Assembly: GCA_905233445.1 (NCBI GenBank)
Contig: CAJOEP010000001.1
Coordinates: forward strand, 1-64,000
DNA: 64,000 nt
Direction: 5' to 3'
Origin: an uncultured Bacteroidales bacterium
Lineage (GTDB): Bacteria; Bacteroidota; Bacteroidia; Bacteroidales; F082
Shown: positions 7,800-64,000 of the stretch, piece after piece
Layout: each line of letters begins with the position of its first letter
Numbering within the stretch: position 1 is the first letter of the stretch
Position numbers and translations under genes: made by a program
Notes under the pieces: model-generated
What the model was told of the DNA's origin: nothing
The model's input: the letters and a program-made list of their open reading frames with translations, nothing else
Database searches by the model: none

Positions 7800-10700
7800 T
7801 TATTGCGTCAAGCTGAAGCGTGCGGTGATGCCTGCAAACACGTTGGTGGTCTTGTAGGCGTTGGCGATGAACGGGTTGGTCATGTCGTATTTGAAGAACA
7901 CCTGTGCGCTAAGACGCTGGCTGAAAGTGTAGTCGCCTGTGAGGTAGATGTTTACCTTGTTCTGGCCGGCTGAAATCTGGCTATGGCGTTCGTCGATGCT
8001 TCTTAAAGTGGTGATGTCGCGTCTGAATCCGATGTCGAGCTTGATTTTAAGGTCGTTGCTAACTTTACGCGAGCCACTTCCGTCGAACAGCGACAGGCTG
8101 AAGCCGAGGTCTTTGAATGTATAACCGCATCCGATCACGATTTCGCGTCCGTTGACGTCAGTGATTTGGTTGTTACTGAAGCCCAGCGTGATAGTTCTCG
8201 ATTTCTTATATTCGATTGACGGCGTTAGTGTGTTGTTGAATGCTAAGGTGATACCGATAAGAGGCGAATATTGTTCTGTGAGAAGCAGTTGCGATATGTC
8301 GTATTGCGGTATGCGCATATTGGTTCCGGTGAACACTGCCATCTGCTGGCTCGCGTTGTAGTTGACGTTGTTGGACCATGCCGAGACGGAGAATGTCGAT
8401 TTATAGTTGTGGGTGATGGTGATGGTCTTGAAGTGTTTTTTCAATGCCGGAATCTTCGACAATCCCGTGAAGTTGATGCTCCAGTTAGGCAAGGCCACGG
8501 TACGGAAGAGTCTGAGACCTATGTTGCTTGGGCTTTGGCCGCTGTATGCAGCTAAGAATGCGTAAGTGACCACTTCTTGCGAAGAAGCTGTGTATCCATA
8601 CGGGTAGTCGGCTTCCCCGACTTCATCGTAGTAATATGGTTCGCCCATGTTGACCCACGCGCCGTTTTCATGAGCCAGGCGGTTGGCTATTTCAAGACGA
8701 TATTTGCATAGGTTATCGAAAAGCTTGTCGCCATCGGTGAATGATGTGCCGGCCATAAAGTATGAAATGCTATAGTTTCCGCCAGTTGTAGGTGTGTAGA
8801 ACTGGAATATTCCCATAGCGTCGGCTCGGAAGTATTCGGAGAAGTTCTCGGCATAGGTGCGGTTACCGGAAAGCTCAATCTTGAAATCGGAATACGGTTC
8901 GAGATTCACCTTATAATTATATGTCTCGGTCATTCGTTCGGTGTAAGCCTGGTTGAACGTGGAGTCGGTGGTGAGCCAGCCTTTGTTGATGGCTGTGTTA
9001 AGCACATCGTTGTTCTGTCCGACCACGAACGCCCATCCCGGTGACCAAGAGTTGTCCATTCCGAATAACCTTGGTTTGTTCATGAAGCCAGGAAGTCCGA
9101 CACCGCTTGTCTTGGAATATGTGAACGATACTTTCTTAACACTTAATAATATGCGTAATGCGTTGTCGACGATGAGTTTACCAACTGATTTGTCATCCTG
9201 TTTAGTCTTTTTTGTGATAGTGTCGTTCTTCTCTTTATCGACTCTTGACCTTGGGTTATTGGCATTACGTTTTGGCGTCAAGATTGACTTAAGGTAGTTG
9301 GACTTGTTGTAAAGTTTTGTCAAATCAGCTGTTGCGGTGAACTGTATGTTGTTGTCGTTTTCGATGGTGTTTCCAAGTTTGGCCTGTGTGTATCGTGAGT
9401 TGGCGATCCAACGATAGTTGCCGGTGTAGTTCACTGTCGAGCCGAGCCAGTCGCAGAATGGTAATTTATTAATAGGTAATGTATAGCTCAGTTTAACCAT
9501 CTGATTGAATCGCGATATCGAGCCGAAATTTAATAATTCGTCACGTATAGTGTCGCGGTTGGCTTTCCATTCGTCGCTGTCGCGCTCCGGGTTACCGGCA
9601 GGCTCATAGATGTAGGCTTGTGATACCGCTGTGTAAGTGAAGTTGAGATTCTTCGTGATGTCGTAACGGAAGTCGTAGTTACGGCTCCAGTCCCAGCTTT
9701 TTGCCGTTGTCTCTTTCAGGAGAATCAAGCCAGACGACTTGTTACGCATCTTCTGGGTGTGAGTCTGACGATACATCTCGGTGTTGAACGAGAAGCTCTT
9801 TGGCAGATAATAGAGGTTGAAATCCTTGAAAACCTGCATATATGACGATGAAGCCCATTGTTTCTTCGCGAATGGAGTCCAAGGTTTCGCGCCAGTAGAG
9901 TAGGAATAGCCGATGCCTCCTCGATGCGACTTCTGGCGGTTGTATTCCATATCAGGTGTTGACTGTTCTTGACTTGTATAGGCGTATGATGCATTGAGGT
10001 TTTCAACATCCCAGAAATGCGGTTTCTTAGAGCCGACGCGGTTTTTGCGCATGTTGGTTATGTTGAAGTTGGTCTGCGTCGTGACGTCTCTTGCCAATGC
10101 GTTCAGCGAGTCTTTTCCATGTTTGTCGAGGTCTTGGAGCGATCTGCTTAGCTTAACGTCGGGGTCGAGAGGGTTGTATTCGGGCGTTATTGTGGTGTTG
10201 TTATGGTCAAAATGCACTGGTACTGTCATGCCGGTCTTCTGTGGCGCCATGAATTTTCCGAGGTCGATATCGGCTGATACGCTGTAATATCTGTTGGATT
10301 CGAGTTCGTTGTCGGTGATTTTCGTCTCGAGAGAGCCGTAGCCTGCTGATTTATAGGAGCCGGCCACTGCCACGCGTCCGAGGTCGGCCAAGTATGCCTC
10401 GACACGTCCTGTGGCGGCATAACCTCCGCCGCTGGTAAGGTCGGTCATGCGTAACTCGTTGATCCACACTATCACGCTCTTGTCTTGTGACACTTCATCA
10501 TCAAATTTCGGGTTTCTGATACCTATCATCATGGAACGCACCTCGCTGATGGTTGGGTTACCAAGCACTTTGATGTAGTTTTTGCCGTCTCTTTCAATAT
10601 ATAACCTGTTGATTCTCACGTCTGTATTGCCGCTGGCTATGGCTGTGTTACGATTTGATTTCACATTCACGACCTTGTCAAATTCAATATCGAAGTTGTT

Positions 10701-13700
10701 TGACTCGGGCCATATGCCATATTCGTCGGTTATTGATGTGCCCCATGGCGTCATCTTCAGAGGAACCTCGTATTCGTAGTAGTTGTCGGTGAGGTCGGAT
10801 CCGAAGCGTATGAAAGCTGTTACTTCGTTGTCATATACCGGGTCGTTTTGGTAAAGACTCTCGGCGTGAACGAACATTTTGAGTTTCTTATAGAATCGGA
10901 AGTCGAATTCTGTGGTTTTATAAACTGCGCGTGCATCGCCATCGACGAGGTTTTTAACAGTAAGTTGCAGTGCCTGTTCGTTCTGACGTACTGTTGAGGT
11001 GGCTCCGGTATAAACTTCTTGTTCTATTCCTGGTGGGATGCAGTAAGGCACTGGGTAGCGACCGCTGTTTTCTTCCAGGTTGACTGCCGACATTTCGAAC
11101 ACAGTGTGGTTGGTCTGGTCGCCAGGCTGGTATTCGCCTGGAGCTTGGATGGCGTTGTAGTATGTGCGCCATTCGCCGCGCACGAGGTCGAGGGTTGCAA
11201 AACGAATCACGATGTCGCTCTTGAATCCTTTGAGGAACATTCTCAAGAAACGGATGGAACTGTAGCCTTCGATGTTACCGACCACGCGGCTAGGCTCGCG
11301 CACCGGGATACGGAACTGATACCATTTCACACGCTGAGTTGAGCCGTTGGCGACCTGCACCACTGCCTCGCGGATGTCGGAGATGAAGTTCTGACCCGAG
11401 GCCTGCATCTTGGCAGGATTGAGTTCGACGACATACTGATAGTAGTTCTCTGATTCGCTCAAAGTGTTGTCGTTGTTGATGTCTTCTTGGTCTGGCAGTG
11501 TGCTGTTATTGGTGGTGTATTCTTCTGTGTATTGAGTCTCGGACGGTGAGTTGCCTTCGTTGCCGTTATATCTCTTGTATCGTTCGAGAATGCTTGAATA
11601 GACAGGGTCGCTGTCATAGTCGCTTCCACGGAAATAATGATAATCGTCGGACGACGGGTCGGCACTGAGCTGGTTGTAAGCTGCGGTATTGAGTTTGGAG
11701 CGCATTGTGTTTAAGAAATCGGAGAAGAACGAACGCTCGTCGTTGTCGTTCAATCCGTCATAACCGATATCCTGATACTGACGTGAATCGGGGTCGGTGT
11801 TGAACGCATCCACAAGTGCCTGCAGTGAAGGAACGCGTCCCCAGACTGTTGTATCGACGTTTTCGACGGTTGCTGTTGTCGGCAAGCCATGTTCATAAGA
11901 TTTACGTCCGTCGCGGAGAATATCTTCCGATACGTCGCCGAGGTTGAAATACAGCTCACCGATGTTTGTCTGGTCTTGTCCCTCATAGAATGGGTCCATC
12001 ATCCAGAATTCTATGTATTCCACGTTTGTGGAGTTAAAGTCTGACGACTCGATAGCGCGCATAATACCGCCCCAGCGGTCTTCTGGGTTATCGAAGGTGC
12101 CGTCTTCGTTAACATGATGTGTGTCATAGTTGTAAGGGCCACGCTGGTTAGGGTAGTAAGCGAGGTTGAGCACTGACATGTTTGTGGATGTTCCAGCCTG
12201 AATATCTCGGTTAGGATATATTTCGGTGAGCAGCACCTGACGCACGCGGTTGTCGGAAAGCTCTTCGTTGGTGATATTTGATGGCAATAGGTTGCCGTAT
12301 CTGTCGTAGAACACCGACTGGTCGATGGTGTACCACGCCAATTTGGCGCGGTTCATGCCATTTTCGAGACCCACTGCCGAGCCTTCCGGGAAAAGGTTGC
12401 TTTGGTTTTGTGGCGTACTGGCGAGACGCCAGAAGTTCCACTGACGCATATCGATGGTCGATTTAGCACCTTCAAAGTCGTCGATATACGAAGTGCCGGT
12501 CTGGTTGGAGTCTTTGTTGATGCCTTGGATGAAACGCGCGAATTCGCCGGATACGTTGATTCGGGAAACGGTGTTGGTTTCATAGAGTGGCAGTTTGTCG
12601 AGCATGTCGGTAAGCCATTGTGACTCAGTCTGATAGTTGATATCGAAGCCGTAGATGGTGTTGCGGATAGGCTCGTCGTTGTAGTTGACTTTGGTGGTGT
12701 AGGCGCGCTCGCTGAGGTGTAAAACTGTTCCTCCTATTCGGAATGTCGGGTTGATTTCGTGTTCAACGCGGGCGCCCAGGAATGTCTTTCTGATGGTTGA
12801 TATCGCAGTGTTGTTTTCAAGCGACACGTTGATGGTGGTACCCGAGTTGAGGAGTGCCTCGTTAAGAATCGTCACGCGGCCGAGGGTGTAATCGACGGTG
12901 TAATCGACGTTTTCAATAAGCGGGATGCCGCCTGCCGTCACGCGGACAGACCCTGGCTGCACGTTGAGTGCGTTAAGGTTGATTTCGCTTCCCGACGAAG
13001 AGGTGTAACGACCTTCCAAACGGTATTTGTTCTTGTCGGTGTATTGCTGAGCCATCACTTTCGTCATGGTGTAAAGCGAGTCGAAAGCGTATTTGTCGGC
13101 CAACTCAGGATGATCAGGGAAGATTTTGTTTCTGATTTGTCCGCCGAAAGGCTCCAACACGGTGAAATAGATACGTCCCGTTGATGCGTTGATGGTACCG
13201 CCATTTGTCGCTGCGCCATTCACGAAGTCGAACATGCCGTCACCGCCTTCGATAGGGTTGTTCTGGCTGTTCAAGCGGTCCATTCCCATGAGATTCAGCA
13301 AAGAGTTGCCTTTGATATCGTCAGGTGCGTCGACGAAATAACCGGTGGCCACGCCGTTGTCGTTGCCAAGATAAAGAATGTTCATCGTGAAGTTGGTGGA
13401 AGCCACTTGATAAGCACGGATGTTGTAAACGTTCTTCATCATCAAGTTCCACATCGGCATCTTCGTGTTGATGGTGGTGCTCTTCAACATCTTGGCAGTC
13501 AGGATGTAGGGGTCTTGTATGCCTTGGTCGGAGAACTCACCAACTTGAAACACTCCATCTTGTCCGATGACGGTGTATTGGTAAGCTACGGCGAGTGTCT
13601 GGTTTGAATTGAGCGTCACGTTTAAGGTGATGAAACCGAGTTTGCGGTTCAGAGTGTATTCGTTGGCGTTCAGTTTTCTGGCTTTTTGGATTTTTTCAAA

Positions 13701-14903
13701 GTCGCGTCCCGAGGTGTATCCCTGACTCGTGAGATAGGATGTCACCGTGTTAAGGCTGCGGATTTGTGTTGTGTCCATGTTTTGGACAAGATTATTCGAA
13801 TAGTTGTCCGGATAGGCTTTCTGGCCGGCATATATGTTGGGCTGAACCTTTTCGTGATTGTATATCCAATCGTATTCGCCTTCTCCTAAGTCGGTGAATG
13901 CCACTATGTTACGGCAGTTTTCGTAGTTTGAGTTGGTGTTTGTCACCCAGACCTCTATTTTTGTTATGTTGATGTCGGATGTCACCGTAGGAAGTGTTGC
14001 GAGTGCCGCCTCGTAGTTGTCGCGGAAATACTGGCTGAGGAAGAAGTGTCTGTTTTCTTCATAATCAATGGCTTCGAGCTCGAATTCCTGTGTCAGCGCA
14101 CCTCCGTTCACTGCAATGTTCTGTGTCTCGCTTTCCTGATAGGATGCGATGGCTGTTACAGTCGTCTTACCGAATTTTAGCTTCGTTTTGAAACCAAAAA
14201 GTGATTGAGTACCAGTGATTAATGTGCTTTGCAAAGGCATGCTGACGTTACCAGCCTCGATGAGTTGCAGGATGTCGTCTTCGTCGCCTTCGTATTTTAA
14301 AGTGAATTTGTTTTCAAACGAGAATTGAGTTTTGGTGTTGTAACTCATCTTGAACTGTATCTTCTCGCCTATTTTTGCTGAAGCACTTATCTGGATATTC
14401 TCGTTGAAGTCGAAATTTGTTGTGCGTTGTTGTGCTACTGTGAGCGAAGGGTCGCGGCGGCGCTGGTATTTCAGACCGAATGTCACGTCGGCGGAACCTT
14501 GTAACTTGATGTCAATGGTATTGCTGCCGAAGATTTTGTCAAACACCTTGCCTCCTATGTAAATAGGCGGAATCAATGAGTTGCCGTTGTTGCCGCCAAT
14601 TGACTGTTCGCGTCGTTCTTTCCAGTAGTCTTTTATGGCTTTCTGCTGCACACAATCGGAATATTGCTGTTGCGTCATAGTGTAAGGGTCGCTAATGACG
14701 AAATCGCCGATTTTACTGACGAAAACGTATTGTCCTGTGACGGGGTCGTATTCGATGGTGCGGGTGATGTTTGACGGTTCCTTAAGTTGGATGCCCGATG
14801 TCTCGCCCTGACCGTACGGATCGTCGCTACTCTGTGCGTTGGCAGAGAATCCGATGCAGACAAGTGTTGTTGTTAAAATATATATTAACTTCTTGATAAT
14901 CAT
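7800..14903 (-). CDS. sprA: SprA/Sov, T9SS outer-membrane translocon
   Basis: 2,367 residues from the ATG at 14,903, which gives a clean signal peptide (MIIKKLIYILTTTL...SANAQ); an upstream in-frame extension of 28 codons lies in the ruvA spacer and end and is rejected. The N-terminal part carries the SprA motif region (SADVTFGLKYQRRRDPSL, QISASAKIGEKIQFKMSYNT), and the rest is long beta-strand-rich sequence ending in a C-terminal aromatic strand (AGITARFSLTQ). SprA forms the very large beta-barrel through which T9SS cargo crosses the outer membrane. Three probable cargo genes are in this window (25,944; 48,004; 60,685). Base composition and codon use look native. Confidence 0.96.
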   Translation of the reverse strand: MIIKKLIYILTTTLVCIGFSANAQSSDDPYGQGETSGIQLKEPSNITRTIEYDPVTGQYVFVSKIGDFVISDPYTMTQQQYSDCVQQKAIKDYWKERREQSIGGNNGNSLIPPIYIGGKVFDKIFGSNTIDIKLQGSADVTFGLKYQRRRDPSLTVAQQRTTNFDFNENIQISASAKIGEKIQFKMSYNTKTQFSFENKFTLKYEGDEDDILQLIEAGNVSMPLQSTLITGTQSLFGFKTKLKFGKTTVTAIASYQESETQNIAVNGGALTQEFELEAIDYEENRHFFLSQYFRDNYEAALATLPTVTSDINITKIEVWVTNTNSNYENCRNIVAFTDLGEGEYDWIYNHEKVQPNIYAGQKAYPDNYSNNLVQNMDTTQIRSLNTVTSYLTSQGYTSGRDFEKIQKARKLNANEYTLNRKLGFITLNVTLNSNQTLAVAYQYTVIGQDGVFQVGEFSDQGIQDPYILTAKMLKSTTINTKMPMWNLMMKNVYNIRAYQVASTNFTMNILYLGNDNGVATGYFVDAPDDIKGNSLLNLMGMDRLNSQNNPIEGGDGMFDFVNGAATNGGTINASTGRIYFTVLEPFGGQIRNKIFPDHPELADKYAFDSLYTMTKVMAQQYTDKNKYRLEGRYTSSSGSEINLNALNVQPGSVRVTAGGIPLIENVDYTVDYTLGRVTILNEALLNSGTTINVSLENNTAISTIRKTFLGARVEHEINPTFRIGGTVLHLSERAYTTKVNYNDEPIRNTIYGFDINYQTESQWLTDMLDKLPLYETNTVSRINVSGEFARFIQGINKDSNQTGTSYIDDFEGAKSTIDMRQWNFWRLASTPQNQSNLFPEGSAVGLENGMNRAKLAWYTIDQSVFYDRYGNLLPSNITNEELSDNRVRQVLLTEIYPNRDIQAGTSTNMSVLNLAYYPNQRGPYNYDTHHVNEDGTFDNPEDRWGGIMRAIESSDFNSTNVEYIEFWMMDPFYEGQDQTNIGELYFNLGDVSEDILRDGRKSYEHGLPTTATVENVDTTVWGRVPSLQALVDAFNTDPDSRQYQDIGYDGLNDNDERSFFSDFLNTMRSKLNTAAYNQLSADPSSDDYHYFRGSDYDSDPVYSSILERYKRYNGNEGNSPSETQYTEEYTTNNSTLPDQEDINNDNTLSESENYYQYVVELNPAKMQASGQNFISDIREAVVQVANGSTQRVKWYQFRIPVREPSRVVGNIEGYSSIRFLRMFLKGFKSDIVIRFATLDLVRGEWRTYYNAIQAPGEYQPGDQTNHTVFEMSAVNLEENSGRYPVPYCIPPGIEQEVYTGATSTVRQNEQALQLTVKNLVDGDARAVYKTTEFDFRFYKKLKMFVHAESLYQNDPVYDNEVTAFIRFGSDLTDNYYEYEVPLKMTPWGTSITDEYGIWPESNNFDIEFDKVVNVKSNRNTAIASGNTDVRINRLYIERDGKNYIKVLGNPTISEVRSMMIGIRNPKFDDEVSQDKSVIVWINELRMTDLTSGGGYAATGRVEAYLADLGRVAVAGSYKSAGYGSLETKITDNELESNRYYSVSADIDLGKFMAPQKTGMTVPVHFDHNNTTITPEYNPLDPDVKLSRSLQDLDKHGKDSLNALARDVTTQTNFNITNMRKNRVGSKKPHFWDVENLNASYAYTSQEQSTPDMEYNRQKSHRGGIGYSYSTGAKPWTPFAKKQWASSSYMQVFKDFNLYYLPKSFSFNTEMYRQTHTQKMRNKSSGLILLKETTAKSWDWSRNYDFRYDITKNLNFTYTAVSQAYIYEPAGNPERDSDEWKANRDTIRDELLNFGSISRFNQMVKLSYTLPINKLPFCDWLGSTVNYTGNYRWIANSRYTQAKLGNTIENDNNIQFTATADLTKLYNKSNYLKSILTPKRNANNPRSRVDKEKNDTITKKTKQDDKSVGKLIVDNALRILLSVKKVSFTYSKTSGVGLPGFMNKPRLFGMDNSWSPGWAFVVGQNNDVLNTAINKGWLTTDSTFNQAYTERMTETYNYKVNLEPYSDFKIELSGNRTYAENFSEYFRADAMGIFQFYTPTTGGNYSISYFMAGTSFTDGDKLFDNLCKYRLEIANRLAHENGAWVNMGEPYYYDEVGEADYPYGYTASSQEVVTYAFLAAYSGQSPSNIGLRLFRTVALPNWSINFTGLSKIPALKKHFKTITITHNYKSTFSVSAWSNNVNYNASQQMAVFTGTNMRIPQYDISQLLLTEQYSPLIGITLAFNNTLTPSIEYKKSRTITLGFSNNQITDVNGREIVIGCGYTFKDLGFSLSLFDGSGSRKVSNDLKIKLDIGFRRDITTLRSIDERHSQISAGQNKVNIYLTGDYTFSQRLSAQVFFKYDMTNPFIANAYKTTNVFAGITARFSLTQ

Positions 14904-47763: not shown

Positions 47764-47813
47764 AAATCTATTAAAAACTTCTTGTTTTTTCAGCTTTATG
47801 CTGAAATTATTTG

Positions 47814-47821
47814 TACCTTTG
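47814..47821 (+). promoter_or_regulatory. -7 box upstream of the cobalamin riboswitch
   Basis: TACCTTTG, directly ahead of the riboswitch. The same octamer precedes the C25 protease at 60,642. A good -33 element is not seen. Confidence 0.5.
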
Positions 47822-47825
47822 CAGC

Positions 47826-47966
47826 CGCTTAGGAAAAGGGAATGCTGTGAAAATCGGCAACAGTACCCGCTGCTGTGAGTCCGGCGTAAAGGCCTGTCAA
47901 TCAAGCCACTGTCGAGAGATGGGAAGGCGACAGGCTCGGGCTAGTCAGAAGACCTTGCCAGGCGTT
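47826..47966 (+). ncRNA. Cobalamin riboswitch
   Basis: The sequence has the class core: GGAAAAGGGAATGCTGTGAA, GGCAACAGTACCCGCTGCTG, then GTGAGTCCGGCGTAAAGGCC and the B12 box region GCCACTGTCGAGAGATGGGA with AAGGCGACAGGCTCGGGCTA and GTCAGAAGACCTTGCC. It lies 37 bp upstream of the 1,068-residue T9SS protein. Adenosylcobalamin-type ligands bind this fold and usually shut off the downstream gene. The expression outcome (translation or termination) is not clear; no strong terminator is seen after it. Confidence 0.93.
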
Positions 47967-48003
47967 AATAAATTTATTTCGGGATTAAAATTAAATTAAA
48001 AAA

Positions 48004-51000
48004 ATGAAAAAGTGTTTCTTTTTAGCATTGTCGCTATGTTTTGCGACGATCGTAAATGCCCAATTGTCAGGCACTTACACCATTAACAGCAACTCTTCGT
48101 CGAATCCTGACTATACCTCGCTCAGCGCAGCGGCTGCGGCTTTGGAGACCGGAGTGTCGGGTCAGGTGGTCTTTGAAATCGCCCCCGGAACGTATGAAGA
48201 GTATGTGACAATCAACGAAATCAACGGCGCTTCGGCAACTAACCGTGTGATTTTCAGAGGTATGGGAGGCGACAACCAGCAGGTGGTCATCACCAGCAAC
48301 GCCGGCTACACCGACAACAGCACCATCAAACTCAACGGCACCGATTACATCACATTTGAGAACATGACGGTGACATCGACATCGGCAAACAAAGCGCGAT
48401 TGTTGGTGACTAACGGACAGACAGACTACAACCATTTTTATAACATTCGTTTTGTCGGAGCGATGTCGAACAACAATCTCGACGGTGACAAAAACCTCGT
48501 TTACTACACCGACGGCGAGTGGATCTGCCATGACAACGAGTTTGTGGGCTGCCATTTCGAAAACGGCTACATCGCCCTGTATTACCAAGGCCATAACATT
48601 TACACGCTCAACGACGGAGTGCTGGTCGAAAACTGCACTTTTTTGAACCAGTCGTTCAAGGGCGTTTATATCTCATTCACCGACAATGCGATAGTGCGCG
48701 GCAATACCGTGACAAACCACACCCACGATGTCTTGACAAACTATCATGCGATGGATTTGCTCCGCATCCGTTATAATAGCATCATCGAGAACAACATAAT
48801 GAACGTGACGAGAAACTCAAACTACGCCACGGTTTTCGAGACACGTCCGGCAATGGGAACGGCTGAGCAGCCTGTCATCATCAGAAACAACATCATTAAC
48901 TTTGTTTGTAATGTGAGCAGCAGCTATTGTGTTGATTTGGACGACAGTAACAGCGAATACGTCTATTTTGTCAACAACACCGTGAAATGCAGCGGCACAA
49001 GCAACTGCGGCAGCATTTTCGTGGAGAAAAACTGGCAGAATCTGCACATTTACAACAATCTGATTGTCAATGAATGCAGCGGCTACGTCTTCCGCATTGG
49101 TGTCGCTGCCGACAACCGTTTCATCGACTACAACCGCATATCGTTCAACGGAAGCTACATCGGAAGACTGGGCTCCAATGACTATGCCACTCTAAGTGAC
49201 TGGACAACCGGAACAGGCTACGACGCACATTCGGCGCTTTGTACACCTAGCTTTGTGGGCACTAACGACCTTCACATTACATCAGCTGACGGCATCACAG
49301 TGGCAAATCCACTTTCATATGTCACCACTGACATTGATGGACAAAGCCGTTCAGCCACAGCACCGTGTGCAGGAGCCGATGAGTTCACTTCAGGCACCAA
49401 CCTGCCGCCTGTTGTGGCAAATCCAGTCAGCAACATCACTTTCGAAACATATCCGGCAAGTCAGAATGTCGATTTAACCAACACATTCAACGACCCAGAC
49501 GACCCGAATAATAACATTATTATCACGGTGGCGTCGAATACCAACCCGTCTGTTGTATCGACAACCTTGAACAACCGCACTTTAACGGTGACACGCCTTG
49601 TGGCAACCGCTGGGATCGCAACGATAACCTTGAGCGCCGAGAGTGCCGGACAGTCAGTGCAGACTAGCTTTACCGTGGACTGCCTTGCTGAAGACCTGCC
49701 GCCAGTAGTGGCAAATCCATTGGCACCAATCAACTTCACAGAATATCCGCAGACGTTTAGTTTCGACCTTAGCAACACCTTCGATGACCCGGATAACAAC
49801 AATAATTTTATCGAAATCACGGTGCAAAACTGTCCGTCGGAAATTACTGCCACAATCGATTGGAGCGATGTGTTATGGGTAACGAGAAGCACATCTAACG
49901 CATTCAATAACAAAATATTAGTCATCCGTGCCACAAGCAACGGCAAATATGTCGATATGAATGTCAGCGTTTCGGGCAACGATGTTCAGGTGACTGTCGG
50001 TACAGCCACTTTCGATGATGTCACACTCAACGCCAGCGGCATATGGACTGGTGAAGAGGAAAACAACGAAATGTTCAGTGGAGGCTGGCTCTTCACCAAC
50101 ACCTACTGGCCTGAATATTCAGCATGGGGAGGCTTCACTGCATCTAACCACACTGATATGACGCAATCGGGACTTAGCGCGCAGTACACCGCTGCCACGG
50201 GCTCCGGCTACGAAGGCTCAGCACAATATGGTGTGGCTTACGTCATGGGCTATGGCGTCCTTACTGATGTTTATGCCGCTGACGGTCAGGCACATACAGT
50301 GACAGGTTTCTATGTCACAAATAATCTTTGGGCTTATCAGAATATGCATGACGGCGATGCCACAGCGACACCTTTCGGAGGCACATCGGGTAACGACCCT
50401 GACTGGTTCAAGCTCACCGCAACAGGCAAAAACGCAAGCGGTCAGACTGTTGGAACAGCCGAATTCTACCTTGCTGACTATCGTTTCGCTAACAATGACG
50501 AGGACTACATCGTCAACACTTGGGAATGGTTCGACCTCAGCTCACTCGGTGCTGTTCACACCATCTCGTTCGAGCTCTCGTCATCGAAAAACAACAGCGG
50601 CGGCATGATTACACCGGCTTATTTCTGCATTGAGAACTTCAACGGAACGGCTCCAGTCCAACCGCAGGATTTGCCTCCATATATCGCAAATCCAGTCGAG
50701 GATGTAGTTTTCAATGAATATCCGCAAACAATCCAAGTTAACCTCGACGGTGTTGCAACTGACGATGATGACCCTGATGATCAAATCACGTATAGTATTG
50801 TTTCAAATTCAAATTCGGCAGAATTAACAGCCACTATGAACGGTAAAATGCTGAATTTGACACGTATTTCGAGGGAAGAAGGCGCATCGTATCTTGTTTT
50901 GCGCGCCACAAGCGACGGCCAATACGTTGATTTTGATGTCAATGTCACGATGAATTATGTTCCGGATGGCATTGAGGAAAATGAGAATGTTACGGTTTCA

Positions 51001-51210
51001 ATTTATCCAAATCCTGCACATGATATTATTTTCGTAGGGGCAAATAATGATTTACCCGTACAACGCATTGATATATACGACGTTACAGGACAATTGATAT
51101 TGATATCAAACGAAACTGAAATCAATGTCAGCACATTACCAAAAGGTGTTTATTTCATTACAGTTTTCACTGAAAATCAAAAATTTGTTGAAAGAATAAT
51201 TATCAAATAA
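48004..51210 (+). CDS. T9SS-exported DUF4465 protein with beta-helix, B12-riboswitch controlled
   Basis: 1,068 residues. Signal peptide (MKKCFFLALSLCFATIVNAQ). Residues about 25-440 form a right-handed beta-helix (FEIAPGTYEEYVTINEINGA, NYHAMDLLRIRYNSIIENNI). About 468-660 are two Ig/cadherin-like repeats each starting LPPVVANP. About 662-885 is a DUF4465 domain (TATFDDVTLNASGIWTGEEE, ASNHTDMTQSG, GTSGNDPDWFKLTATG, AEFYLADYRFANNDEDYIV, MITPAYFCIENFNG). About 888-985 is a third repeat (LPPYIANP), and the end is a T9SS type A sorting domain (VSIYPNPAHDIIFVGA). DUF4465 proteins occur in B12-uptake loci of Bacteroides as I recall. Inferred: a surface corrinoid-binding protein. It overlaps the CoA-transferase by 1 bp. 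Confidence 0.85.
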   Translation: MKKCFFLALSLCFATIVNAQLSGTYTINSNSSSNPDYTSLSAAAAALETGVSGQVVFEIAPGTYEEYVTINEINGASATNRVIFRGMGGDNQQVVITSNAGYTDNSTIKLNGTDYITFENMTVTSTSANKARLLVTNGQTDYNHFYNIRFVGAMSNNNLDGDKNLVYYTDGEWICHDNEFVGCHFENGYIALYYQGHNIYTLNDGVLVENCTFLNQSFKGVYISFTDNAIVRGNTVTNHTHDVLTNYHAMDLLRIRYNSIIENNIMNVTRNSNYATVFETRPAMGTAEQPVIIRNNIINFVCNVSSSYCVDLDDSNSEYVYFVNNTVKCSGTSNCGSIFVEKNWQNLHIYNNLIVNECSGYVFRIGVAADNRFIDYNRISFNGSYIGRLGSNDYATLSDWTTGTGYDAHSALCTPSFVGTNDLHITSADGITVANPLSYVTTDIDGQSRSATAPCAGADEFTSGTNLPPVVANPVSNITFETYPASQNVDLTNTFNDPDDPNNNIIITVASNTNPSVVSTTLNNRTLTVTRLVATAGIATITLSAESAGQSVQTSFTVDCLAEDLPPVVANPLAPINFTEYPQTFSFDLSNTFDDPDNNNNFIEITVQNCPSEITATIDWSDVLWVTRSTSNAFNNKILVIRATSNGKYVDMNVSVSGNDVQVTVGTATFDDVTLNASGIWTGEEENNEMFSGGWLFTNTYWPEYSAWGGFTASNHTDMTQSGLSAQYTAATGSGYEGSAQYGVAYVMGYGVLTDVYAADGQAHTVTGFYVTNNLWAYQNMHDGDATATPFGGTSGNDPDWFKLTATGKNASGQTVGTAEFYLADYRFANNDEDYIVNTWEWFDLSSLGAVHTISFELSSSKNNSGGMITPAYFCIENFNGTAPVQPQDLPPYIANPVEDVVFNEYPQTIQVNLDGVATDDDDPDDQITYSIVSNSNSAELTATMNGKMLNLTRISREEGASYLVLRATSDGQYVDFDVNVTMNYVPDGIEENENVTVSIYPNPAHDIIFVGANNDLPVQRIDIYDVTGQLILISNETEINVSTLPKGVYFITVFTENQKFVERIIIK

Positions 51211-52523
51211 TGAGAAAGCAATATCAACCAGTTTCGGCGGAGGAAGCCGTTAAAGTCATAAAATCAGGCGACCATGTGCACATCAGCTCGGTGTCAAGTG
51301 TGCCGCAGTGTTTGGTGAAAGCCTTGTGCGACCGCGGTCGTGCAGGTGAGTTGAAAAACGTGTATATCCACCATCTCCATACCGAAGGTGCTGCACCATA
51401 CGTCAACCCTGAGTTTGAAGGCATCTTTCAGCACAACGCCTTCTTCGTCGGTGCCAACGTCCGCGAAAGCGTGCAGAAAGGATTGGCCGACTACATCCCG
51501 GTGTTTCTTGGCGAGACCTCTAAGCTTTACCGCGAAAAATATATCAGATGCAACGTCGCGATGATTCAGGTGTGTCCGCCTGACAAGTTCGGATATGTTT
51601 CGTTGGGCTCATCCGTTGATGCCACTTTGGCGGCGATGGAAAGCGCAGAATTTGTCATTGCGGTGGTCAACAAACACGTGCCGCGCACCTTTGGCGATGC
51701 CCTCGTACATATCAGCAGAATCAATGTTTTTGTTGAAGACGACACCCCATTGCTCACCGTCGATATGCCTGAGCCGAATGAGGTGGAGAAGACCATCGGT
51801 CGTTATTGCGCTGAGCTCATCGAAGACGGCGCCTGCCTCCAGATGGGTATCGGCAGCATCCCGAACGCTATTTTGTCGTGCCTCCACAACCATAAGAACA
51901 TCGGTATCCACACCGAGATGTTCTCCGACGGCATCCTTCCTTTGGTGAAAAAAGGCGTCATCACTGGCGATAATAAGAAGCTCGACAAAGGAAAGATCGT
52001 CTCCACCTTCGTGATGGGTTCGAAGAAGATTTACGACTTCATCGACGGCAACCACGAGGTTTTGCTGAAAGATGTGGAATATACCAACGACCCGTTCATC
52101 ATCGCTCAGCAGCCTAAGATGACGTCTATCAACTCAGCAATCCAGATTGATTTGTCGGGTCAGGTGTGTGCCGACTCTCTTGGCGACAAGATTTATTCGG
52201 GCGTCGGCGGCCAGATAGACTATGTCTATGGTTCTTCGCGTGCTCAAGGCGGCAAGGCCATCATAGCGATGCCATCGACCACAAAGAAAGGCATCAACAA
52301 GATTGTGCCGGCGCTTGATCTGGGCTCTGGCGCTGTCACCACGCGTAACCACATCCATTGGTTTATCACGGAATATGGTGCGGTGAACCTCTACGGCCGT
52401 TCGCTGCAGGAACGCGCCCGCCTCATCATCTCCGTCGCTCATCCGAAATACCAGGAAGAGCTCGACGAGGCAGCGTTCAAGAGATTCGGACCGCATTATC
52501 ACTTTATCTGTAGAAACATGTAA
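51210..52523 (+). CDS. Acetyl-CoA hydrolase/CoA-transferase family protein
   Basis: 437 residues, class I CoA-transferase fold. GIHTEMFSDGILPL carries the catalytic Glu236; SGVGGQIDYVYGSSRAQGG and RARLIISVAHPKYQEEL are conserved. It swaps CoA between acyl groups, for example acetate with propionyl-, butyryl- or 4-hydroxybutyryl-CoA; the exact pair is not decidable. It starts in the stop of the riboswitch-controlled gene (TAATG), so B12 levels may also affect it. A propionate-forming route through the B12-dependent methylmalonyl-CoA mutase would link the two, but that is inference. Confidence 0.85.
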   Translation: MRKQYQPVSAEEAVKVIKSGDHVHISSVSSVPQCLVKALCDRGRAGELKNVYIHHLHTEGAAPYVNPEFEGIFQHNAFFVGANVRESVQKGLADYIPVFLGETSKLYREKYIRCNVAMIQVCPPDKFGYVSLGSSVDATLAAMESAEFVIAVVNKHVPRTFGDALVHISRINVFVEDDTPLLTVDMPEPNEVEKTIGRYCAELIEDGACLQMGIGSIPNAILSCLHNHKNIGIHTEMFSDGILPLVKKGVITGDNKKLDKGKIVSTFVMGSKKIYDFIDGNHEVLLKDVEYTNDPFIIAQQPKMTSINSAIQIDLSGQVCADSLGDKIYSGVGGQIDYVYGSSRAQGGKAIIAMPSTTKKGINKIVPALDLGSGAVTTRNHIHWFITEYGAVNLYGRSLQERARLIISVAHPKYQEELDEAAFKRFGPHYHFICRNM

Positions 52524-52596: not shown

Positions 52597-53181
52597 ATGA
52601 TCAACTTCATAGAAATTTTCGGAGCCTTCTTCGTGATGGCAGCCATTATCGATATCTTCGGGTCGATACCGATTTTCGTGAGCATGAGGGAACAAAACAA
52701 GGTCATTAAAGCGGGTCAGGCATGCTTGGTGGCTTTAGCGTTGTTTTTGGCGTTTTTCTTCGCTGGCGACGGATTGTTGAGGATTTTTGGCATCGATGCC
52801 GCCTCGTTTGCAGTGGCAGGATCATTTGTGTTGTTTGTACTCGCCGTCGAGATGATTCTCGGTCGCGAAATCATTAAAAACGAAGCTAACAACGTAGGAG
52901 CGAGCATTGTCCCAGTGGCTTTCCCTCTTATTGCGGGTCCGGGAGCACTTACAGGCTTGCTGTCATTGCGAGCCGACTATGCCATCATCAATATTTTGAT
53001 AGGTTTGCTGCTGAACATCATCCTCGACTACGTGGTGATTCGCCATCTCGACAAGATACAGAAAATATTAGGGCAGAATTTGATTTTTATCCTGCGAAAG
53101 TTTTTCGGCGTTATTTTGCTGGCAATCGCGGTTAACATGTTTGTCAACAACATAATGGTTATCATTGCCAAGGTTCATTGA
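52597..53181 (+). CDS. MarC-family membrane protein
   Basis: 194 residues, about six helices: FVMAAIIDIFGSIPIFVSMR, ALALFLAFFFAGDGLLRIFG, PVAFPLIAGPGALTGLLSL. The GPG motif and DIFGSIPIFV match the UPF0056/MarC family, once called multiple-antibiotic-resistance protein but of unknown function. It converges on the helix-hairpin-helix gene 6 bp away. Confidence 0.9.
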   Translation: MINFIEIFGAFFVMAAIIDIFGSIPIFVSMREQNKVIKAGQACLVALALFLAFFFAGDGLLRIFGIDAASFAVAGSFVLFVLAVEMILGREIIKNEANNVGASIVPVAFPLIAGPGALTGLLSLRADYAIINILIGLLLNIILDYVVIRHLDKIQKILGQNLIFILRKFFGVILLAIAVNMFVNNIMVIIAKVH

Positions 53182-60684: not shown

Positions 60685-63600
60685 ATGAAAAAATTCACGT
60701 TTTTATTGCTTCTGTCGATAATGGGCATGGTTACTTTCGCTCAGACAGTTGAGATGACTTATCACTTTGATAATCCGAAGGTTACAGAGCTTCGTGGCTA
60801 TCAACAAATCAACTTTGAAGGCTGCTTGCAGACCGCTGTCGCCGGCAATCCGTCACTGCCATATCAGATGGTTAGCCTGGTTCTGCCACAAGACGCTGAA
60901 GCTGAGTCAGTCGAGGTTGAACTCTCTGATTTTCAAGAGATTGAAGGTCCAATAAGTCTTTTCCCATATCAGCCGTCAAGAACGATGAACGATAAGGGTC
61001 AGAAAGATTTGGTTATAAACGAAGCCATTTATGCTTCAAAGAGTGTGTATCCTGCTGAAAATCATGGTGTTGTGACTACACAATACAAGAACGGATACGG
61101 CTTTGCTTTCACATCGTTTACTCCTGTTCAATATATCCCTTCAGAAGGCAAGGTGATGTATGCAAAAAACGCTACAGTGCGAGTAAACACTAAGGCTTCC
61201 AAGGAAGATCACAGCAATATGCTTTGGGGAACGCAGGAAATTAAAAACACTGTAAAACGCCTCGCTCAGAACCCTGAGATGGTTGAAAACTATCAGACAA
61301 AAGGTCGTGAAGTTACTGCTTACGACGTGCTCATTATCACAAGCTCTGAGTTCGTTGATGGCTATAGCGATTATTGCGAATATTACAATTCCATCGGTAT
61401 GCGTAACAGAATCGCTTTAGTATCAGATATTTACGAGCAGATGACTGGCGTTGACAATCAGGATAAGATTCGTAACTACATTATTCAAGAATATCAGAAC
61501 AACGGTATTTTGATGGTGGTTTTAGGTGGTGATGTCAACATCGTGCCTTACCGTGGCTTCTTCTGCCAGGTGCAGTCAAGCAGTTTGTACGAGAGTAACA
61601 ATATCCCTGCCGACCTTTATTACTCAGGCCTTGACGGCACTTGGAACGACAACGGCAACGACCAATGGGGAGAGCCTGGTGAAGATGACCTCCTTCCTGA
61701 GATCGGAGTCAGCCGTATGTCATTCAAGACAACGACCGATTTGCAAAATATGATTCACAAGACGTTGTTATACCAGCAGAATCCTGTTATGGGCGAGTTC
61801 CACAAGGTGATTTTGGCTGGTGAACATCTTTACGACAACCCTACATCAAACGGTTCCGATTATCTGGAGCTTCTCATTGGAACACACGATGACAATGGAT
61901 ACACCACCGTCGGATATCCGGTGGACTATGACTTCACGAAGTTGTATGAAGAAGAAGGCAATTGGAGCGGAACGTTACTGAAACAGGCAATTAACGCCGG
62001 TACCAGCTATGTGCATCACGACGGTCACGCTAACTCTGGTTACGTGGCAGGTTGGTACAGCGTTTCTAACAGCGATTTTTCCGGTGCCAACGGCGTTGAC
62101 CATAACTACACATTCTTCCATTCGCAAGGTTGCGATTGCGGCGCTTTTGACGAGAGCTGTATCCTTGAGAAGATGGTGACTATCGAGAACTTTGCCGTTG
62201 CGGTTATCGGAAACTCGCGTTACGGCTGGTTTAACGAAGGTCAGACCGAGGGTCCTGGCGCTCACCTTGAAAGAGAGATGACCGACGCACAGTGGGACGA
62301 CCGCGTGGGATGGCTCAGCATCGCTCACGCCATCGGTAAATGTATGACAGCACCATGGGTGACAGCTCCTGGACAGTGGGAGGAAGGCGCTTTGCGTTGG
62401 AACTTCTACGATATGAACGTCCTCGGCGACGGTGTCGTCAACGTGTGGCTCGACGAGCCTTTCACAGCAACAGTCGATGTGCCGGCACAGGTAGTCATTG
62501 GCACTCAAACAATTAACGCAGTTGTGACAGACTCTAACGGCAATCCGTTGGTTAACTACCGCTGTATGGTTTATATGGATGGCGAGGTTATAGCGATGGG
62601 TGTTACCAACGACAACGGTGTAGCCGAGATCCAATTTGAAGGCGGCTTGCAAAACGTGGGCACTATGATTATGAAGGTGCAGGGTGTGAACTCTTATCCT
62701 GTTGAAGTGGAAATTATGGGTGTGCCGAGCAACACTGCATATGTGGTTTATGACGGCTATACATTGAACGGCGGCACTCAAATCGAATACGGCGGCAACT
62801 ACGGATTCAATATGAATCTGAAAAACGTCGGCAGTGTCAACGCAAACAACGTGACAGCTACGATAACATGCGACAGCGAGTATGTGACAATCAACGAAGC
62901 CACTGTAACAGTTGGCAATATCTCAGGAAATCAATTAGTTGCACTTGAAAATGTGTTCAATTTCAGCGTAAGCGACGCTGTGCCGAACAACACCACGGTG
63001 CGCTTTGATATTGTTTGCACCGACGGTAATGACACATGGGAAAGCCATTTCAACGCAAAAATATATGCCCCTGAGTTTGAATTGGTCAGCGCGGTTCTTG
63101 AGACATCTGCAGGCCTGTATATGAATCCTGGTGACAGCGGAACAGTGCATTTTACCTTGAAAAACAAAGGAAACGCCGCAGTTCCTTCAGCTGAGTTCAG
63201 AGTGTTCAACTCACACGATGTGATTACTATAACAACAACAGAGTGGAGCTTCGGAGCTATTGCCGCTGGTGAGGAATTTACCGCCGATATGGACTTCGTG
63301 CTGGCTGAGACAGCTGAGATTGGTGCGATGTACCAGTTGTTCTACGGAGCATATTACGGTAATTACATCCTCGATGGTGAGTATTATATCCAAGTCGGTC
63401 AGTCGATGGATGGCTTTGAGACGGGCGATTTCACAGCGTTTAACTGGCAGTTCACAAGCCCGATTTACGCTTGGACAGTTGTAACAGAGAACCCTTACGA
63501 AGGCATGTATTGCGCCAAATCATCAAGCATCAGCGACTATGAGTCAACATCAATATCGATTACAGTGGAAGTCGGACAGGCGAGCAATGTGAGTTTCTAC

Positions 63601-64000
63601 TACAAAGTGTCGTCGGAAACCAACTACGACAAACTGCATTTCTACATCGATGGAGAAGAGAAGAATAATTGGTCGGGTGATGTGTCATGGTCGTATGTCC
63701 TTTACGCTATTCAAGCTGGCACACACACACTTAAATGGGAATATACCAAGGACGTATCAATGTCGAGTGGCTCTGACTGCGCTTGGATTGACAATGTGGT
63801 GCTTCCGGCTTCCTCAGTGATAACCGATGTTCAGGAAGTTGTTGAAAAACATAATGTTATGGTTTATCCTAACCCTGTTAACAATGTTTTGAATGTTAAT
63901 CTCGGTGAAAATCAGTCGGATGTTGTAATCTACAACAGTGTCGGACAGACCGTCAGACGCATTGGAATGGCCTCAGGTGATGTCCAAATCAGCGTTGAAG
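60685..64000 (+). CDS. Gingipain-family (C25) protease, T9SS cargo, 3' end cut
   Basis: At least 1,105 residues; the frame runs off the right edge. Signal peptide (MKKFTFLLLLSIMGMVTFAQ). A propeptide-like region precedes the C25 catalytic domain (about 220-610), with YVHHDGHANSG (His448) and HSQGCDCGAFDES (Cys483; a second Cys485). VIGNSRYGWFNEGQTEGPGA is typical of Bacteroidetes C25 relatives. Then CARDB-like repeats, a jelly-roll-like module (GFETGDFTAFNWQF, WIDNVVLP) and the start of a T9SS type A sorting domain (VMVYPNPVNNVLNVNLGE). Probably a surface protease; specificity unknown. Confidence 0.88.
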   Translation, partial: MKKFTFLLLLSIMGMVTFAQTVEMTYHFDNPKVTELRGYQQINFEGCLQTAVAGNPSLPYQMVSLVLPQDAEAESVEVELSDFQEIEGPISLFPYQPSRTMNDKGQKDLVINEAIYASKSVYPAENHGVVTTQYKNGYGFAFTSFTPVQYIPSEGKVMYAKNATVRVNTKASKEDHSNMLWGTQEIKNTVKRLAQNPEMVENYQTKGREVTAYDVLIITSSEFVDGYSDYCEYYNSIGMRNRIALVSDIYEQMTGVDNQDKIRNYIIQEYQNNGILMVVLGGDVNIVPYRGFFCQVQSSSLYESNNIPADLYYSGLDGTWNDNGNDQWGEPGEDDLLPEIGVSRMSFKTTTDLQNMIHKTLLYQQNPVMGEFHKVILAGEHLYDNPTSNGSDYLELLIGTHDDNGYTTVGYPVDYDFTKLYEEEGNWSGTLLKQAINAGTSYVHHDGHANSGYVAGWYSVSNSDFSGANGVDHNYTFFHSQGCDCGAFDESCILEKMVTIENFAVAVIGNSRYGWFNEGQTEGPGAHLEREMTDAQWDDRVGWLSIAHAIGKCMTAPWVTAPGQWEEGALRWNFYDMNVLGDGVVNVWLDEPFTATVDVPAQVVIGTQTINAVVTDSNGNPLVNYRCMVYMDGEVIAMGVTNDNGVAEIQFEGGLQNVGTMIMKVQGVNSYPVEVEIMGVPSNTAYVVYDGYTLNGGTQIEYGGNYGFNMNLKNVGSVNANNVTATITCDSEYVTINEATVTVGNISGNQLVALENVFNFSVSDAVPNNTTVRFDIVCTDGNDTWESHFNAKIYAPEFELVSAVLETSAGLYMNPGDSGTVHFTLKNKGNAAVPSAEFRVFNSHDVITITTTEWSFGAIAAGEEFTADMDFVLAETAEIGAMYQLFYGAYYGNYILDGEYYIQVGQSMDGFETGDFTAFNWQFTSPIYAWTVVTENPYEGMYCAKSSSISDYESTSISITVEVGQASNVSFYYKVSSETNYDKLHFYIDGEEKNNWSGDVSWSYVLYAIQAGTHTLKWEYTKDVSMSSGSDCAWIDNVVLPASSVITDVQEVVEKHNVMVYPNPVNNVLNVNLGENQSDVVIYNSVGQTVRRIGMASGDVQISVE

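Follow-up and report, generated by a model that had tools for sequence, protein, structure and literature searches.

A cobalamin riboswitch upstream of a DUF4465 protein with a type IX secretion tail: a candidate route for B12 capture in Bacteroidales

The window analysed here is a 64,000-nucleotide stretch of DNA from an uncultured rumen Bacteroidales bacterium (GTDB lineage ending in F082; assembly GCA_905233445.1, contig CAJOEP010000001.1, positions 1 to 64,000 of the forward strand). It carries a cobalamin riboswitch followed by the gene of a protein that combines a DUF4465 domain with a type A sorting tail of the type IX secretion system (T9SS). On the strength of sequence comparisons and structural models, we propose, with a probability of roughly 80%, that this riboswitch-controlled protein is a T9SS-exported catcher of vitamin B12 that feeds the BtuG-BtuB uptake system. 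An earlier note on the same DNA had suggested a T9SS route for B12 capture. This suggestion is largely supported by the present analysis, but it was incomplete in that the T9SS-tailed form is not unique to the window protein and in that a coenzyme A (CoA) transferase gene immediately downstream had been missed. The features that carry the proposal are the following (Ig, immunoglobulin; ORF, open reading frame; pLDDT, predicted local distance difference test).

47803-47975, + strand: cobalamin riboswitch aptamer, RF00174 (cmscan, 73.6 bits, E 3e-16).
47814-47821, + strand: candidate TAnnTTTG-like -7 promoter box, TACCTTTG, directly 5′ of the aptamer.
48004-51210, + strand: T9SS-tailed DUF4465 protein, 1068 aa, candidate surface B12 binder (ORF, Pfam, TIGRFAM, fold match).
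48004-48060, + strand: Sec-type signal peptide, residues 1-19, MKKCFFLALSLCFATIVNA-Q, called by eye.
48538-49065, + strand: borderline beta-helix stretch, residues 179-354 (PF13229, 25.6 bits against a cut-off of 25.9).
49405-49977, + strand: two Ig-like repeat units, from residues 468 and 566 (PPVVANP repeats, without Pfam hit).
49978-50664, + strand: DUF4465 domain as modelled, Pfam core 50113-50640 (PF14717, E 1e-53; pLDDT 93.6; Foldseek).
50326-50343, + strand: DE-helix LWAYQN with W776 and Y778 (phmmer alignment, opposite the Y-x-Y of BtuJ1).
50611-50625, + strand: HI-loop TPAYF, residues 870-874, with Y873 at the place of the B12-binding tyrosine (alignment; motif GTPAYF/NTPAY in the main text of PMC13398666).
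50674-50967, + strand: third Ig-like repeat unit, from residue 891, C-terminal of DUF4465 (PPYIANP).
51001-51204, + strand: T9SS type A sorting tail, residues 1000-1067 (PF18962, 1.5e-14; TIGR04183, 4.4e-15).

The RF00174 model was matched over its full length (model positions 1-189), with a score of 73.6 bits against a gathering score of 31.5, and was the sole Rfam family to reach its gathering score in the window. This bears out the clear cobalamin riboswitch that the earlier note had placed at 47,826-47,966, as well as its distance of 37 bp from the gene, which becomes 28 bp to the ATG at 48004 when the Rfam ends are used. The candidate -7 box resembles the Bacteroidota promoter motif, and its TTTG showed no variation across 16 aligned riboswitch leaders. 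The B12 box of the window (47951-47966) reads CCTTGCC, that is, with an extra T relative to the CCTGCC of most aligned leaders, and this form is common to the window and two relatives from the same genus, L067 and L074 (L and G numbers are our handles for loci and genomes).

DUF4465 is a B12-binding family and its function is no longer unknown. The main text of PMC13398666 reports that eight distantly related members bind B12, so that the earlier note was right to link DUF4465 with B12 loci. In the window protein, PF14717 was matched at residues 704-879 (E 1e-53), and a search of the PDB with the same protein retrieved BtuJ1 at 4.2e-26 (9qpm) and 1.1e-25 (9fct). The AlphaFold model of the domain was obtained with a pLDDT of 93.6, and the best solved structures found with it by Foldseek included D5EK51 with B12 (9hmu, 5.9e-22) and BtuJ1 with cyanocobalamin (9qpm, 6.3e-19); all nine hits with E <= 0.001 were DUF4465 entries, and the structure-based match with B12-bound BtuJ1 and D5EK51 had 30% identity. 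According to the same main text, the B12 pocket includes an HI loop, GTPAYF, whose tyrosine is conserved in 97% of homologs, and the loop has its counterpart in the TPAYF of the window domain. In the DE helix, W776 and Y778 lie opposite the BtuJ1 Y-x-Y, and either could correspond to the published Y146. More than 70% of the family are described there as lipoproteins and the remainder as carrying periplasmic signals; a word search of that main text for T9SS, type IX, sorting and secretion returned no mention.

The sorting signals of the window protein are of another kind. Its signal peptide ends in VNA-Q and has, as judged by eye, no cysteine at the cleavage site and no BtuJ-type lipobox, and its C-terminal tail lies well above both curated cut-offs (PF18962, Por_Secre_tail, 54.4 bits against 27; TIGR04183, 55.4 against 23). 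The 1,068-residue protein with a DUF4465 domain and a T9SS type A tail that the earlier note had described was thereby confirmed with Pfam and TIGRFAM. The beta-helix and three Ig-like repeats of the same description stood in part: the repeat units are present, the beta-helix falls just under its cut-off, and 'Ig-like' is purely descriptive for the three units since Pfam matched no Ig family. Two components of the T9SS machinery, SprA and PorU, were looked for and both are encoded in the genome, PorU (the sortase, 1170 bits) on a different contig. T9SS-tail matches in the genome numbered 86, of which 79 exceed the cut-off. As the earlier note had stated, no BtuB gene adjoins the locus; the BtuB-BtuG pair is on another contig. 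The translocon gene lies in the window itself:

7809-14792, - strand: SprA, T9SS outer-membrane translocon (TIGR04189, 2496 bits).

That the SprA gene shares the 64-kb window with the riboswitch locus was absent from the earlier account. A further ORF, 61264-64000 on the + strand and clipped by the window end, weakly matches the PorU sortase/C25 peptidase model and has a T9SS tail at 63862-64062.

The arrangement found in the window looks common. DUF4465 was detected in 169 genomes out of a sample of 393 from the order, and the survey set consisted of 137 of the 150 DUF4465 places among the matches listed, that is, the stronger matches; the window's own entry and 12 second matches were omitted (nine were tandem domains within a single ORF, and three, G201:C7:152567, G292:C1:1521330 and G109:C3:111169, lay in neighbouring frames). 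With a tail model of our own, seeded with four tails of the window's genome, 93 of the 137 proteins were found to carry a T9SS tail; in a random 50 of them the model found 35 tails and Pfam, at E 0.001, found 31. A riboswitch covariance model (R1), built from 16 riboswitches and run on all 137 loci, agreed with Rfam at 30 of 30 loci (22 with and 8 without a riboswitch), 12 of which had been used in building it. In the survey of riboswitches at genes for T9SS-tailed DUF4465 proteins, as the earlier note had proposed it, a same-strand riboswitch lay upstream of 78 of the 93 genes, at most 500 bp from the start in 59 and further away in 19; the 78 are spread over 77 genomes of 40 families. Of the remaining 15, five are either open at the 5′ end or preceded by less than 500 bp of sequence. 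Among 33 lipoprotein-like DUF4465 proteins (called with a crude pattern of our own, with L171 and L172 set by hand and L040, open at both ends, counted as a lipoprotein), 22 had a riboswitch within 500 bp, two further away and nine none; for the remaining 11 proteins the figures were five, three and three. Since the riboswitch occurs with T9SS-tailed, lipoprotein-like and other classes, it accompanies DUF4465 irrespective of the sorting signal. Moreover, the 137 loci gave 113 riboswitch hits, of which 112 lay upstream on the same strand and one upstream on the opposite strand; no hit lay downstream. The sequence scanned amounted to 494,194 bases upstream and 472,587 downstream of the genes. 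Because the lineages are related, the locus counts do not represent independent events. Of the 137 listed loci, 53 encode a BtuB-like receptor and 35 a BtuG-like protein.

A lack of riboswitches at orthologous loci, which the earlier note had held would speak against its proposal, was not found: L053, L067 and L074 of the same genus have one, as does L063, one gene further upstream, and so do L076 and L087, which belong to other families and share the architecture. The genome collection supplied 79 named loci; in 62 of these the DUF4465 protein had a T9SS tail, and 75 had one or more riboswitch hits, regardless of orientation. For example, in Mariniphaga sediminis strain SY21 (L285) a cobalamin riboswitch precedes the gene of a T9SS-tailed DUF4465 protein, and in a lake genome (L282) the order is riboswitch, DUF4465 with T9SS tail, a T9SS-tailed relative of C27b (see below), BtuB and BtuG. 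In DUF4465 proteins from outside the Bacteroidota (L270, L290, L292, L308, L310, L311, L312 and L318), PEP-CTERM-like tails take the place of T9SS tails, and most of these loci have a riboswitch hit. Planctomycete DUF4465 proteins, several with such tails, had hits at L270, L290, L292, L310 and L311; none was found at L297 and L312, both of which have little upstream sequence. In four further DUF4465 loci (L054, L065, L137 and L143) no T9SS tail was detected, and the proteins share a C-terminus of the form NGKVIMVRNR- or KMSDGTTRKILVR-like, which may be a further sorting signal.

Four cobalamin riboswitches were found in the genome of the window (2.47 Mb, 88% complete). Besides that of the window, one precedes a BtuB-like receptor (TIGR01779, 2.2e-28, below the curated cut-off) and a lipobox-bearing, BtuG-like DUF5074 protein; one, on C27, precedes two T9SS-tailed proteins, C27a (393 aa) and C27b (331 aa); and one, on C19, precedes a giant fn3-rich ORF (L008:6317-11128 +) that is clipped by the contig end. 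The pair of giant and riboswitch is kept in ten other places in the genus, e.g. L206 and L224. Of six relatives of the giant, three have a clear tail and one a weak tail according to our T9SS model, which found no tail in the other two, and Pfam at E 0.001 found no T9SS tail in the two relatives tested. With the evidence for the tail of the C19 giant thus mixed, two of the four riboswitches, those of the window and of C27, are shown to head T9SS cargo. In 30 genomes of the genus, 78 riboswitch places exceeded the cut-off, of which 66 were read and 12 left out. C27a comes first behind the riboswitch at 19 of these 66 places; this position is taken by relatives of the window protein at 13, by the giant at 11, by BtuB at 10, by CoA-transferase followed by MarC at six, by NrdD at three and by a lipoprotein DUF4465 operon at one, and three places were too close to a contig end. 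Among the 13 window-protein relatives (one of them read over 1500 bases only), two had no DUF4465 match, and six matched from residue 668 onward only, that is, DUF4465 and tail without the stalk (e.g. G404, G395, G421, G408 and G413). Stalk and DUF4465 are therefore sometimes separate, and the riboswitch stays with both. NrdD, the anaerobic ribonucleotide reductase, is encoded behind the riboswitch at L231:13362-15656 -, L238:1714-3171 + (a short ORF that matches part of NrdD only) and L239:5130-7241 -. A Bacteroides-like operon was seen at L231:1389-8788 (G401), with riboswitch, DUF4465 lipoprotein, PKD/BtuH-like lipoprotein, BtuG and BtuB. As for published cases, passages of PMC11575231 give four cobalamin riboswitches for the rumen species Xylanibacter ruminicola KHP1, none close to propionate-pathway genes, and passages of PMC9723704, which also names T9SS, place a TonB-dependent transporter behind a cobalamin riboswitch.

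The two proteins behind the C27 riboswitch differ in what can be said of them. C27b may be a remote relative of BtuH: its profile comparison with BtuH by hhalign gave 96.1% (E 2.8e-9) over 59 columns only, the BtuH profile being BtuH itself (7biz, 4.6e-98), and 7biz was also the top Foldseek hit, with a weak E of 2e-3 and a model pLDDT of 69. A PDB profile search with C27b matched tails and not 7biz. A relative of C27b is encoded in 51 of the 137 listed DUF4465 loci, at times fused to DUF4465; L131 matches mostly via the tail. C27a was considered as a relative of BtuH or DUF4465 and rejected, as profile comparisons with both gave nothing, and its PDB profile search returned T9SS tails and one match at chance level only. 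It is tied to B12 only by its position and by an ORF beside a DUF4465 gene (L108:2076-4256 +, 726 aa), in which a C27a-like stretch is joined to a DUF5074 propeller of BtuG type and to a T9SS tail that scores below threshold.

Directly downstream of the DUF4465 gene lie two further genes:

51210-52523, + strand: CoA-transferase, 4-hydroxybutyrate CoA-transferase-like; its start overlaps the DUF4465 stop by one base.
52597-53181, + strand: MarC-family membrane protein (PF01914).

The nearest solved relatives of the former are 2oas (6.7e-128) and 3eh7 (7.9e-122), with a range to 8e-115 that includes 3GK7, over nearly the whole length. MarC follows the CoA-transferase in most loci of the genus in which both were read. 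In six loci of the genus (L180, L197, L222, L223, L224 and L232) the CoA-transferase gene directly follows a cobalamin riboswitch, which makes its inclusion in the regulon likely in the window too, where it is probably the second gene of the riboswitch transcript. No description of a cobalamin-controlled CoA-transferase was found in the open-access literature searched. A 4-hydroxybutyrate fermentation or bypass, that is, a B12-free exit from succinyl-CoA, was rejected because 4-hydroxybutyryl-CoA dehydratase (HpaB_N) was matched in none of 11 genus genomes; methylmalonyl-CoA mutase was found in all 11. Help from the CoA-transferase when B12-dependent routes fail is conjecture. At L218:1138-1926 + a subunit of an OraE/KamE-like aminomutase with a B12-binding domain, a possible B12 user, is encoded beside a CoA-transferase-like gene.

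In the mechanism that we propose, the riboswitch would lower expression when cobalamin is plentiful, and B12 starvation would free the leader so that the DUF4465 protein is made. The protein would cross the inner membrane via Sec and the outer membrane via T9SS, through SprA, and removal of its tail by PorU would leave it on the surface or released. There, the BtuJ-type DUF4465 domain, held out by the beta-helix and the Ig-like stalk, would capture B12 and pass it to BtuG-BtuB, which are encoded elsewhere under a separate riboswitch. A T9SS route for such a B12 catcher looks common in relatives of the window's rumen bacterium. We lean slightly towards a wider view, in which many Bacteroidales would possess a T9SS-exported 'corrinophore' arm, consisting of riboswitch-controlled DUF4465 and BtuH-like proteins that leave via SprA and feed BtuG-BtuB, with modules having moved between lipobox, T9SS and PEP-CTERM-like tails and with the CoA-transferase drawn into the B12 regulon in the rumen lineage. 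T9SS export of B12 binders is not described in the titles and abstract openings of the open-access papers listed in the searches. B12 capture in Bacteroidota has so far been worked out on Bacteroides lipoproteins, and 93 of the 137 listed DUF4465 proteins of the order carry a T9SS tail. If the proposal is true, a role of a major secretion system in scavenging nutrients has been overlooked, B12 phenotypes are expected in T9SS mutants, and the competition for B12 among rumen and environmental species involves tools that have so far gone unstudied.

Several observations weigh against the proposed B12 catcher. The first aromatic residue of the DE helix is Trp (W776) where BtuJ1 has Tyr; no clear expression platform was seen in the predicted fold of the leader; the ORFs listed around the locus, between 42 and 57 kb, include no BtuB; the sample of the order is limited to the stronger DUF4465 matches; and for 10 T9SS-tailed genes with at least 500 bp upstream, the stretch read contains no riboswitch. 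Furthermore, two genus relatives, G407:C6 (L229) and G416:C42:27949 (L224:12315-14846 -), have riboswitch and T9SS tail with the DUF4465 part unmatched, the latter aligning to residues 23-658 of the window protein only, and the beta-helix part may therefore have a separate use. These two relatives also favour the view that the window protein is a B12-regulated adhesin or glycan binder whose DUF4465 domain has lost B12 binding, as do the beta-helix and Ig-like stalk and the presence of a giant fn3-rich protein of adhesin type behind another riboswitch. The preserved TPAYF pocket loop and overall predicted fold, and the several relatives that retain DUF4465 and tail without the stalk, nevertheless make this the least probable of the alternatives.

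It is hardly more probable that the riboswitch mainly serves the CoA-transferase, as a metabolic enzyme tuned to B12 supply, with the surface protein a passenger on the transcript. The transferase start does sit in the stop codon of the DUF4465 gene, the six loci in which it comes first after the riboswitch would fit, and NrdD, a B12-independent enzyme behind the riboswitch in three genus loci, indicates that metabolic targets exist. However, the link between DUF4465 and CoA-transferase was seen in two of the 137 listed loci, both in the genus and none outside it, where the riboswitch remains with DUF4465, and for several riboswitches of the genus that precede a DUF4465 gene, the sequence read beyond that gene contained no CoA-transferase. 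A more serious alternative, which we still regard as doubtful, concerns the place of action: the window protein could be a corrinophore released by T9SS that acts, siderophore-like, in the medium or on vesicles and not on the producer cell. PMC10202324 allows release as well as anchoring of T9SS cargo, and passages of PMC12751083 describe vesicle-borne BtuJ supplying cells of B. thetaiotaomicron with B12. Against this, PorU is encoded in the genome, and type A tails are described in PMC9143113 as linked to surface anionic lipopolysaccharide.

Compared with known systems, the downstream gene resembles the 4-hydroxybutyrate CoA-transferases (2OAS, 3EH7 and 3GK7), but differs in the cobalamin riboswitch control and in that 11 of 11 genus genomes gave no dehydratase match. 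With BtuH (BT_1956, 7BIZ) and the BtuH part of BtuGH (8BLW), C27b may share a remote relationship, whereas it carries a T9SS tail in place of a lipobox and the similarity spans part of the domain. Like other T9SS type A cargo, the window protein has a Sec-type signal and a PF18962/TIGR04183 tail and comes from a genome with SprA and PorU; unlike it, it would serve B12 capture, for which no cargo was found in the literature searched. A further likeness is to BtuJ1 and BtuJ2 of Bacteroides thetaiotaomicron (9FCT, 9QPM and 9I2L) and to D5EK51 (9HMU), with which the domain shares the DUF4465/IPR027828 jelly-roll and the HI-loop motif. BtuJ and the window protein also have in common an upstream cobalamin riboswitch and a place in B12 loci. 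BtuJ proteins are lipoproteins of about 250 aa encoded in BtuB loci, whereas in the window, with no BtuB adjoining, DUF4465 is one domain of a T9SS-tailed protein of 1068 aa.

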